A stretch of DNA of 40,789 nt. It comes from Bacteroidales bacterium (GTDB lineage Bacteria > Bacteroidota > Bacteroidia > Bacteroidales > PUMT01). A program made the translations under genes and the position numbers. Below the pieces are notes generated by a model. That model did not search any database and was not told the DNA's origin. It saw nothing but the letters and a program-made list of their open reading frames with translations. The stretch's first letter is position 1, and every line of letters starts with the position of its first letter. The stretch spans positions 1-40,789 of the forward strand of contig SLPB01000131.1 in NCBI GenBank assembly GCA_007132225.1. Direction: 5' to 3'. Positions 1,047 through 40,789 of the stretch are shown piece by piece.

Positions 1047-2408
1047 TCAGGCATCCAGGTTGTAAAGCTTGATCTTATTGTAGAGAGTCTTGCGGTCAAT
1101 ATTCAGAATCCTTGCAGCCTTGGATTTATTATTATTGTTTTTTATCAGGGCATTTTGAATCACCTCTTTTTCCGTGATAAGTGTTGCAGATTTTAAGTCG
1201 GTAACATCTCTTTCAAGTAGATTACCGGTATCATTACTATTGGATATACCGGAATTAAACCTTATCTCATCCGGCAAAAGATCAGGTGTTATGATTTCAT
1301 CCGGACATAGTAAAACAACCCGTTTAATGATGTTCTGAAGTTCGCGTATATTGCCGTGCCAGTCGTAGTTTATCAGTAATTCTTTAACCGACTCATCCAC
1401 TCCTTTAACATTTTTATTGAAATCAATATTTGCCTGTTTTATGAAATGATTGGTAAACTCGGTAATATCTTCTGTACGCTGCCTTAGTGGAGGGATATGG
1501 AGTCTGAACCCGTTCAGCCGGTGATATAAGTCTTCCCTGAATTCGCCGGCTTTAACTTTATTCAGCAAATTTTCGTTGGCAGCTGCTATCAACCTTACAT
1601 CAACTTTAATGGACCTATTATCACCCAGTCTGCTCACGGTCTTTTCCTGCAAAGCCCTTAAGAGCTTCATCTGATTTTCATGGGGGAGGTTACCCACCTC
1701 ATCGAGGAAAAGGGTTCCGCCTTTTGCTTCCTGAAAATAACCGACTTTATCATTAATAGCTCCGGTGAAGGCCCCCTTTATATGTCCGAACAATTCACTG
1801 TTTGCAAGTTCTCTTGGTATGGCCCCGCAATCAAGAGCAATAAATGGTTTGTCACTTCGCTTACTGGCATAATGAATTGCTCTTGCGATATACTCTTTGC
1901 CAGAGCCAGTTTCTCCTTCAATCATAACGGTAATGTCGGTGGGAGCAATTACTTTCACATGCTTCATAATATCAAGCATCTCCGCACTGCGGCCAGTTAT
2001 AAAATCACTGCCAAATGAAGTTTTTGTAATCTTTTCTTTTTTATTTTCCAGTGCCTTTTTGATGATAGTCAACACCTCTTCTGGTTGCATTGGTTTTGAA
2101 ATGTAATCAAAAGCACCTGATTTGATAAGCTCAACAGCTTTTTTTATTTCTGCATATGCTGTCATAATTATTACAGGGGTAGAAGTGTTTTTGGCCTTTA
2201 CATATTTTAATATATCAAGCCCGTCATAATCGGGAAGACGGAAGTCACACAAAACCAGGTCGAAATGGTTCCTGTCTATCAAAGTTTTTGCACTGCTTCC
2301 TGAAAAAGTAGTTTCAGCAACAAACCCGTTTTGATCAAGGTACTTTTTCAGTATGCTGCAAATGTATGTGTCGTCATCGACAATCAGAATAGAATACTTC
2401 TTTGACAT
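1047..2408 (-). CDS. Sigma-54-dependent response regulator (NtrC/AtoC family enhancer-binding protein)
   Basis: This 453-aa protein has the full NtrC-type architecture. Residues 1-120 form a receiver domain with the acidic DDD at 11-13, phospho-acceptor D55 (in CDFRLPDYDG) and a Lys in the KP motif near residue 105. An AAA+ sigma-54 activation domain follows, with Walker A GETGSGKE, the sigma-54-contacting loop GAFTGA, Walker B GGTLFLDEVG and the arginine-finger region FREDLYHRL. The C-terminus is a Fis-type helix-turn-helix (SKAARILNIDRKTLYNKI). It would open sigma-54 promoters after phosphorylation by a histidine kinase; no kinase gene is in this window. It is transcribed divergently from ppsA across a 675-bp gap holding a good sigma-54 promoter that points at ppsA. 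Family assignment is secure; ppsA as target is inference. Confidence 0.97.
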   Translation of the reverse strand: MSKKYSILIVDDDTYICSILKKYLDQNGFVAETTFSGSSAKTLIDRNHFDLVLCDFRLPDYDGLDILKYVKAKNTSTPVIIMTAYAEIKKAVELIKSGAFDYISKPMQPEEVLTIIKKALENKKEKITKTSFGSDFITGRSAEMLDIMKHVKVIAPTDITVMIEGETGSGKEYIARAIHYASKRSDKPFIALDCGAIPRELANSELFGHIKGAFTGAINDKVGYFQEAKGGTLFLDEVGNLPHENQMKLLRALQEKTVSRLGDNRSIKVDVRLIAAANENLLNKVKAGEFREDLYHRLNGFRLHIPPLRQRTEDITEFTNHFIKQANIDFNKNVKGVDESVKELLINYDWHGNIRELQNIIKRVVLLCPDEIITPDLLPDEIRFNSGISNSNDTGNLLERDVTDLKSATLITEKEVIQNALIKNNNNKSKAARILNIDRKTLYNKIKLYNLDA

Positions 2409-2607
2409 CTAATTTAGGTTAAATGTAATTGCTTAATATAAAAAATTAATTTACCCTTGCTGCAAAAGTAAGAAAAAGAATTATAATAAGGAGTCATCCT
2501 TTCTTTTTCAAATGCCAAAAAATTATAACCAGACGATAATTCAGCAGGAAATAAGCTAAATCAGTTTTTCTATAAGCAAATCATCATTAGGTAGAAGGTG
2601 TTTTTCT

Positions 2608-2663
2608 TGAATCATCCATGTGACAAATCACCCGAAAGAGATATATAAACTATGGATGATTCA
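2608..2663. promoter_or_regulatory. 12-bp perfect inverted repeat, possible regulator-binding site
   Basis: TGAATCATCCAT at 2608-2619 is repeated in inverse orientation at 2652-2663 with a 32-bp spacer. It lies in the gap between the sigma-54 activator and ppsA, about 200 bp upstream of the activator start codon. Function is inferred only from position and symmetry. Confidence 0.35.
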
Positions 2664-40070: not shown

Positions 40071-40101
40071 TTTGGTTTTTAAAAAATAACTGGTAGGTTT
40101 A
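40071..40101 (+). promoter_or_regulatory. Bacteroidota-type promoter for the asn leader
   Basis: TTTG at 40071-40074 is followed after 19 bp by TAGGTTTA at 40094-40101, one base from the Bacteroidota -7 consensus TAnnTTTG and at the usual spacing from the -33 TTTG. Transcription would begin near 40105-40110, about 15 nt before the leader start codon. Confidence 0.65.
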
Positions 40102-40122
40102 CACAAATTTATGTTATAAAAC

Positions 40123-40209
40123 ATGGCAAATACCAATAATAATCTCAATAATAATGCTTTGAACAATAATCCGTTCAATAGCCCGGAGGTTATTATGTGT
40201 AATATGTAA
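40123..40209 (+). CDS. Asparagine-rich leader peptide (28 aa) of asnA
   Basis: An ATG at 40123 opens a 28-codon frame ending in TAA at 40207-40209, beginning MANTNNNLNNNALNNNP. Twelve of the codons are Asn (residues 3, 5-7, 9-11, 14-16, 19 and 27), eleven AAT and one AAC. They fall in three runs of three separated by Leu or Ala-Leu, the pattern of attenuation leader peptides in which codons of the regulatory amino acid are concentrated. The stop lies 22 nt before a strong intrinsic terminator, and the next gene is asnA, whose product makes asparagine. The peptide itself probably has no function; its translation rate would report charged tRNA-Asn. The A-rich leader without Shine-Dalgarno is normal for Bacteroidota. 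An A/T-rich triplet run by chance is the alternative, but the codon mix and context argue against it. Confidence 0.85.
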   Translation: MANTNNNLNNNALNNNPFNSPEVIMCNM

Positions 40210-40243
40210 ACCAAATCACAATATAAAACACAGAAGCCCTCCG
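40184..40243 (+). promoter_or_regulatory. Candidate antiterminator of the asnA attenuator
   Basis: CGGAGG at 40184-40189, inside leader codons 21-23, is complementary to CCTCCG at 40238-40243, the upper part of the terminator ascending arm. The leader segment CCCGGAGG also copies the terminator descending arm CCGGAGGG (40248-40255). Pairing of the first two would exclude the terminator. The segment lies just after the Asn runs, so a ribosome stalled there leaves it free. The helix is only 6 bp, so its strength is uncertain. Confidence 0.6.
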
Positions 40244-40267
40244 CGAACCGGAGGGCTTCTTTTATTT
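40232..40267 (+). terminator. Intrinsic terminator (attenuator) between the Asn leader and asnA
   Basis: AGAAGCCCTCCG (40232-40243) pairs perfectly with CGGAGGGCTTCT (40249-40260) around loop CGAAC, followed by TTTATTT. It stands 80 bp before asnA, downstream of the leader stop codon and in front of the gene it would serve, which marks it as an attenuator rather than the end of a normal gene. Confidence 0.92.
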
Positions 40268-40346
40268 AAACAGATATTAACAAACGGGATAATGCAGAAC
40301 TTCATAAATAACAATAGATATAATAATTAAATCTAAAATTAAAAAA

Positions 40347-40789
40347 ATGGAATCCTCTCAAAAAACAGCGACTTCGGAAATGCTTGGCCAGTTTGAAACA
40401 GAAAAGGCCATTGACCTGGTAAAAACAACCTTCTCGGAAATATTGAGCCGGCAGCTGAATCTGTTCAAGGTAGTAGCACCAATGATAGTAGCGGAAGATA
40501 CCGGCATCAATGACGATCTCAACGGTATCGAACGTCCTGTAAAACTTCATATAAAAGATATGCCTTCCAGCCATGTAAGCGTTGTCCAGTCACTTGCCAA
40601 ATGGAAACGGTACCGGCTTGGCCAGCTTGATGCAAAACCCGGGGAAGGTATAATAACAGACATGAAAGCTCTTAGACCGGATGAAGATATGGGCCCGCTC
40701 CATTCTATATTCGTGGACCAGTGGGACTGGGAAAGAGTGATCACCAAAGAGGAAAGAAAATTGTCATTCCTGAAAGATACTGTAAGACA
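40347..40789 (+). CDS. asnA: Aspartate-ammonia ligase (asparagine synthetase A), C-terminus cut by window edge
   Basis: From the ATG at 40347, 147 complete codons are visible and the frame runs off the window. The sequence matches AsnA closely: QLNLFKVVAPMIVAEDTGIN, DDLNGIERPV, SVVQSLAKWKRYRLGQ, GEGIITDMKALRPDED and LHSIFVDQWDWERVI, all conserved in the class II-tRNA-synthetase-like fold. AsnA makes asparagine from aspartate, ammonia and ATP (AMP-forming) in the cytosol. The visible part is about 45 % of a usual length near 330-345 aa. Upstream are an Asn-rich leader peptide and an intrinsic terminator, so expression is probably set by attenuation in response to charged tRNA-Asn. The AsnC regulator of Enterobacteria is not seen here. 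Confidence 0.97.
   Translation, partial: MESSQKTATSEMLGQFETEKAIDLVKTTFSEILSRQLNLFKVVAPMIVAEDTGINDDLNGIERPVKLHIKDMPSSHVSVVQSLAKWKRYRLGQLDAKPGEGIITDMKALRPDEDMGPLHSIFVDQWDWERVITKEERKLSFLKDTVR

Follow-up and report, generated by a model that had tools for sequence, protein, structure and literature searches.

The region preceding asnA in the window, the whole 40,789-nucleotide stretch that was analysed, very probably controls this gene by ribosome-mediated transcription attenuation, with Asn-tRNA(Asn) as the species sensed. The basis for this conclusion is comparative: a conserved Asn-rich leader, a terminator, a covarying antiterminator, a conserved spacing between these parts, and the association with asnA. 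From these features we infer ribosome stalling, terminator readthrough and the physiological signal. Attenuation had been proposed in a sequence-only reading of the window, and the proposal is supported by Asn enrichment that is kept in relatives and by covariation of the alternative antiterminator and terminator pairings. Each feature of leader-peptide attenuation that can be tested computationally in a sequence was found, namely an Asn-rich ORF, a terminator, and an antiterminator that excludes it.

Results

The elements of the region are listed in Table 1. The Bacteroidota-type promoter named in the sequence-only reading has its elements at the expected spacing. A -7 element of the form TAnnTTTG, 28-30 nt upstream of the leader, is also present at the matching distance in congeners L010, L014, and L022-L025. 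The perfect 12-bp intrinsic terminator described after the leader ORF is there, with its U-rich tail, and the gene downstream is indeed asnA. Its product matches TIGR00669 from the ATG at 40347 (E 2.8e-39 over the 147 codons present). The gene is cut by the contig end, and its 3' part lies on a separate contig (G000:C93).

Table 1. Features of the asnA upstream region, numbered from the first nucleotide of the window
Feature	Position	Strand	Basis
Bacteroidota-type promoter: TTTG (-33 like) at 40071, TAGGTTTA (-7 like) at ~40094-40101	40071-40101	+	sequence
Palindrome ATGTTATAAAACAT, overlapping the leader start codon	40111-40126	+	sequence
Leader ORF MANTNNNLNNNALNNNPFNSPEVIMCNM, proposed Asn sensor	40123-40209	+	sequence; kept in relatives
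Region 1, Asn codons pairing with 40186-40196 in ribosome-free RNA (1:2)	40136-40146	+	minimum-energy fold
Region 2, 5' side of the antiterminator	40184-40200	+	covariation, fold
Intrinsic terminator AGAAGCCCTCCG-CGAAC-CGGAGGGCTTCT, 12-bp stem 40232-40243/40249-40260 plus T-rich tract	40232-40265	+	sequence, covariation in relatives
Second Asn-rich ORF MQNFINNNRYNN, no Pro-Pro, no terminator	40292-40330	+	intact modules there in relatives
asnA, aspartate-ammonia ligase, 5' part	40347-40789	+	TIGR00669
Tandem modules in relatives L023-L025, L028, L030, L041, L045, L087, L126, L127, L160, L161; L069 at contig edge			

The leader ORF has 28 codons, 12 of them for Asn and arranged in three NNN clusters, as the sequence-only reading had it, and this content is beyond what shuffling yields. 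When the 469-nt intergenic region was shuffled 4000 times with dinucleotide content preserved, no shuffle yielded an ORF in which 9 codons out of 12 encode Asn, and four reached 12 Asn in one ORF. The leader has the highest Asn density among the 1970 short start-to-stop frames of the window, and the fold of the leader RNA has a z-score of -7.0. With 74% A+T in the intergenic region and A-rich codons (AAT and AAC) for Asn, the ORF might be regarded as a by-product of (AAT)n drift that happens to precede a terminator unrelated to it. This explanation is barely credible given that the Asn density was never matched in the shuffles and that, among the leaders of relatives, AAT and AAC codons replace one another while the Asn residue itself is kept. 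Moreover, the only other match to an NNNxNNN-type pattern in the same genome lies antisense within a glycosyltransferase-like coding gene. Drift is also at odds with a similar leader before asnA in a GC-rich genome and with the covariation between region 2 and the terminator, both described below.

The sequence-only reading missed the antiterminator. In the window, CGGAGG (40184-40189) is complementary to CCTCCG (40238-40243) of the terminator 5' arm, and folding predicts a second helix between UGUGU (40196-40200) and ACACA (40228-40232). The corresponding pairs are GGAAGGCU:AGCCUUCC in Hymenobacter and GAGAGGCU:AGCCUCUC in L127. Complementarity of region 2 to the terminator 5' arm exceeds that of shuffled sequences in the window (p=0.005) and in the type-1 set of 25 aligned first-type modules, each of which has a terminator (Fisher p ~1e-29). 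It is weak in L045 (p=0.33) and L014 (p=0.24). Each region 2 matches the arm of its own module more closely than arms taken from other genomes, with a permutation p of 5e-5, the floor of the test; the value is the same with one module per genus.

Pairs were counted on curated, anchored arms, since the MAFFT alignment displaces some arms; L120 and duplicate rows were excluded. In the 15 distinct curated rows, 94.2% of antiterminator cells are paired compared with 82.9% after shuffling, five of eight pairs show changes in both partners, and covariation scores 0.50 compared with 0.26. Every pairing measure drops when the antiterminator partner is slid out of register. Anchoring by complementarity biases these counts toward structure, which makes the permutation of own and foreign arms the stronger test. 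The terminator 5' arm also covaries with the 3' arm, with pair counts similar to those of the antiterminator, as expected of one strand that takes part in two mutually exclusive helices.

The spacing of the parts is consistent with a stalled ribosome. In 23 of the 25 type-1 modules, 9-15 nt separate the last clustered Asn codon from the start of region 2 (13 nt in the window); a ribosome with that codon in its A site would reach almost to this point with its leading edge. Masked folds were calculated for the 25 type-1 modules and one type-2 module with a thermodynamic model that ignores cotranscriptional kinetics. When the ribosome is placed at the last Asn codon, all 25 type-1 modules are predicted to form the antiterminator. 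For the stage at which the terminator arm is still to be synthesized, the folds of 24 of them show region 2 paired with the Asn-codon region upstream of it. A point against the model is that in the window and most congeners ~20 nt lie between the core of region 2 and the last nucleotide of the stop codon, so that a ribosome waiting at the stop would cover region 2 only in part.

The following sequence of events is proposed. Transcription would begin just 5' of 40123, and the leader would be translated by a ribosome. When Asn-tRNA is ample, the ribosome would pass the Asn codons, move over region 2 and reach the stop codon. Region 2 would then be unable to hold the terminator 5' arm, the 12-bp terminator would form, and the transcript would end at ~40265. 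When Asn-tRNA is short, the ribosome would stall at the Asn codons with its leading edge just short of region 2. Region 2, left free, would pair with CCUCCG of the terminator 5' arm, no terminator would form, and asnA would be transcribed.

Alternatively, asnA could be controlled by a leader RNA that binds a ligand or protein, such as a T-box or riboswitch, or the palindrome (40111-40126) could be the site of a repressor; in either case the Asn ORF would be of secondary importance. The palindrome may function as an operator or form a hairpin at the 5' end of the RNA, and it is kept in much of the genus, intact or nearly so in L008-L010, L022-L024 and L161. It is absent, however, from the leader-bearing congeners L014 and L160 and from other families; the conserved parts are the Asn codons, region 2 and the terminator. 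No Rfam family reached its gathering threshold in the window, nor in the leader when this was scanned permissively, and no T-box was found. The best Rfam score of the leader was that of Phe_leader, 28.7 bits against a gathering threshold of 55, which probably reflects merely the shape of a leader and terminator. A tRNA scan of the window found none. Taken together, control by such an RNA or by a repressor seems highly improbable.

To determine how widespread the module is, AsnA was searched for in 60 relatives, 395 genomes of the class, 395 of the phylum and a collection of named genomes, and the upstream regions were scanned. Asn-rich leader modules precede asnA in ~31 species. Asn enrichment in the asnA leaders of relatives, on which the sequence-only reading had staked its claim beforehand, was found, together with a terminator, in 10 of the 11 genomes of the window's genus in which the asnA 5' region is assembled, and likewise in many other families, with ~20 species beyond the genus. 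In one congener (G008; L007, ~2480-2620, reverse strand) the leader ORF is lost and the terminator directly follows the asnA promoter, a natural leader deletion. The module is likewise found upstream of asnA in the family's second genus and in several further families of the Bacteroidia. Cultured Hymenobacter, among them H. pini, H. gummosus and H. frigidus, carry a single-module form, and the module is present in Solirubrum puertoriconensis. The GC-rich genome mentioned above (L148, ~1250-1400, reverse strand) belongs to another class of the phylum and has an Asn leader that starts with GTG (VNANLNSNLNLNANNNAMTAGG), a terminator and asnA; it is the only one with an Asn leader among nine AsnA loci first met in the phylum search.

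The distribution is limited, a point missed by the sequence-only reading, as was the tandem layout described below. On a tree of 127 AsnA proteins the presence of the leader is clustered, requiring 9 changes compared with 23 when labels are shuffled. In the large, typical Bacteroides/Prevotella clade the leader is absent from most AsnA genes, which, like its loss in G008, counts against the proposal. When the window's genome was scanned with a covariance model of the module, a single match was obtained (E 6.6e-17). Matches with E <1e-5 among the 60 relatives all lie before asnA, except one at a contig end. Among the weak matches listed (E >3e-5), only L195 has an Asn leader, itself before asnA; L211 has an unrelated short Asn-rich frame, and some are thr and asd leaders.

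Several other candidate leaders were observed. L046 (Rhinopithecimicrobium) and L125 (a genome of the same class) have a weak candidate leader of low Asn content (MSNIYNSLLNYPCNLAGS) and a terminator before an AsnA gene. In other Bacteroidia, Thr/Ile-rich leaders such as MTINNTTIITIITTGKYFGGK, followed by a terminator, precede an aspartokinase (thrA-like) gene (L188, L191, L194 and L199, ~1480-1700 each, reverse strand) and are candidates for a thr attenuator. A Lys-rich leader, MKMICKNKKHNMKRFQQGKGQ, and a terminator adjoin an asd-like (aspartate-semialdehyde dehydrogenase) gene in L186 and L204 (~1495-1620), a possible lysine attenuator.

Two complete modules lie in series before asnA in 12 relatives; a thirteenth, L069, is truncated by the edge of its contig. 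The downstream, type-2 leader has an Asn run such as NNNNNNKSPPGG, followed in 14 of 14 cases by Pro-Pro 1-3 codons past the last Asn. The Pro codons vary, and an exact RNA complement of the Pro-Pro segment is present in only 1 of 14, so that a role as an RNA pairing element was rejected and a pause at the level of the peptide is favoured. Antiterminator pairing in type-2 modules is weaker (Fisher 3e-7, permutation p 0.02).

The window has one complete module and does not have the tandem layout. A second Asn-rich ORF, missed by the sequence-only reading, ends 16 nt upstream of asnA, and intact second modules occupy the corresponding place in L023, L024, L160 and L161. In L022 the second leader and asnA form a single in-frame fusion. 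We infer from these comparisons that the second attenuator has decayed in the window and in L022, and the ORF in the window is regarded as a relic.

The position of the relic and the fusion in L022 might suggest that the short ORF acts on asnA by translational coupling or reinitiation, while the hairpin terminates another transcript. In a 2016 survey, leader genes in Bacteroidetes peak 11-14 bp upstream of genes (PMC4833913), which is in keeping with coupling. The main leader, however, is 137 nt from asnA, behind the terminator, and the single-module relatives have no ORF adjoining asnA. Nor does coupling require that region 2 covary with the terminator arm. Coupling is thus very unlikely as an alternative to attenuation.

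Discussion

The proposed asnA attenuator resembles the enterobacterial trp, his, thr, leu and phe attenuators, in which, too, a short ORF is enriched in codons for the amino acid that the pathway makes, the 1:2, 2:3 and 3:4 pairings exclude one another, and an intrinsic terminator precedes a biosynthetic gene. It differs in that the amino acid sensed would be asparagine and the host belongs to the Bacteroidota. Unlike Trp_leader, His_leader, Thr_leader, Leu_leader and Phe_leader of Rfam, it has no covariance match at the thresholds used. In Enterobacteria asnA is controlled by AsnC, and in Firmicutes T-boxes often control asparagine genes. These act in the same pathway through a protein regulator or an RNA that binds tRNA directly, whereas the asnA leader is proposed to act through translation of a leader peptide. 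No published description of an Asn leader attenuator for asnA was found in the open-access literature, in line with the sequence-only reading, which was aware of none in Bacteroidota. Bacteroid-trp RNA (RF01692), a candidate cis-regulatory leader RNA in Bacteroidetes (PMC2864571), is by name linked to an amino-acid pathway; it is a family separate from the asnA leader and was not detected in the window by the Rfam scan.

The tandem relatives share with Salmonella mgtCBR the presence of two short ORFs in one leader. The mgtM and mgtP attenuators of mgtCBR read ATP and proline-charged tRNA, and were considered by the authors a singular example (PMC3641672). In contrast to those two different signals, both asnA modules are Asn-rich and would read one common signal. 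The conserved Pro-Pro of the type-2 leader suggests a built-in ribosome pause and could add a second input. A tentative extension, more doubtful than attenuation itself, is that in many Bacteroidota two serial Asn-reading attenuators guard asnA. Pro-Pro would hold an unstarved ribosome over region 2 and give a tight default OFF state, and the two gates would multiply, so that a purely RNA-based circuit would respond steeply and with a threshold to one amino acid.

Judged from a 96% complete assembly, in which no AsnB passes the curated cut-off, the window's genome appears to encode no asparagine synthetase besides AsnA. AsnS is present, which indicates that free asparagine can be used to charge tRNA(Asn); asnS of the same genome does not have an Asn leader of this kind.

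If the conclusion is correct, asparagine joins the amino acids that are read by leader-peptide attenuation, and classical attenuation by coupled transcription and translation is placed in the Bacteroidota. Shine-Dalgarno use is rare in this phylum and, to our knowledge, transcription-translation coupling has been little studied there. Uncoupling of transcription and translation would disable the design, and the asnA, thr and asd leaders therefore make coupling directly testable. The tandem design, in which both modules would respond to the same signal, would lend itself to testing how a dose response is shaped by attenuators placed in series.
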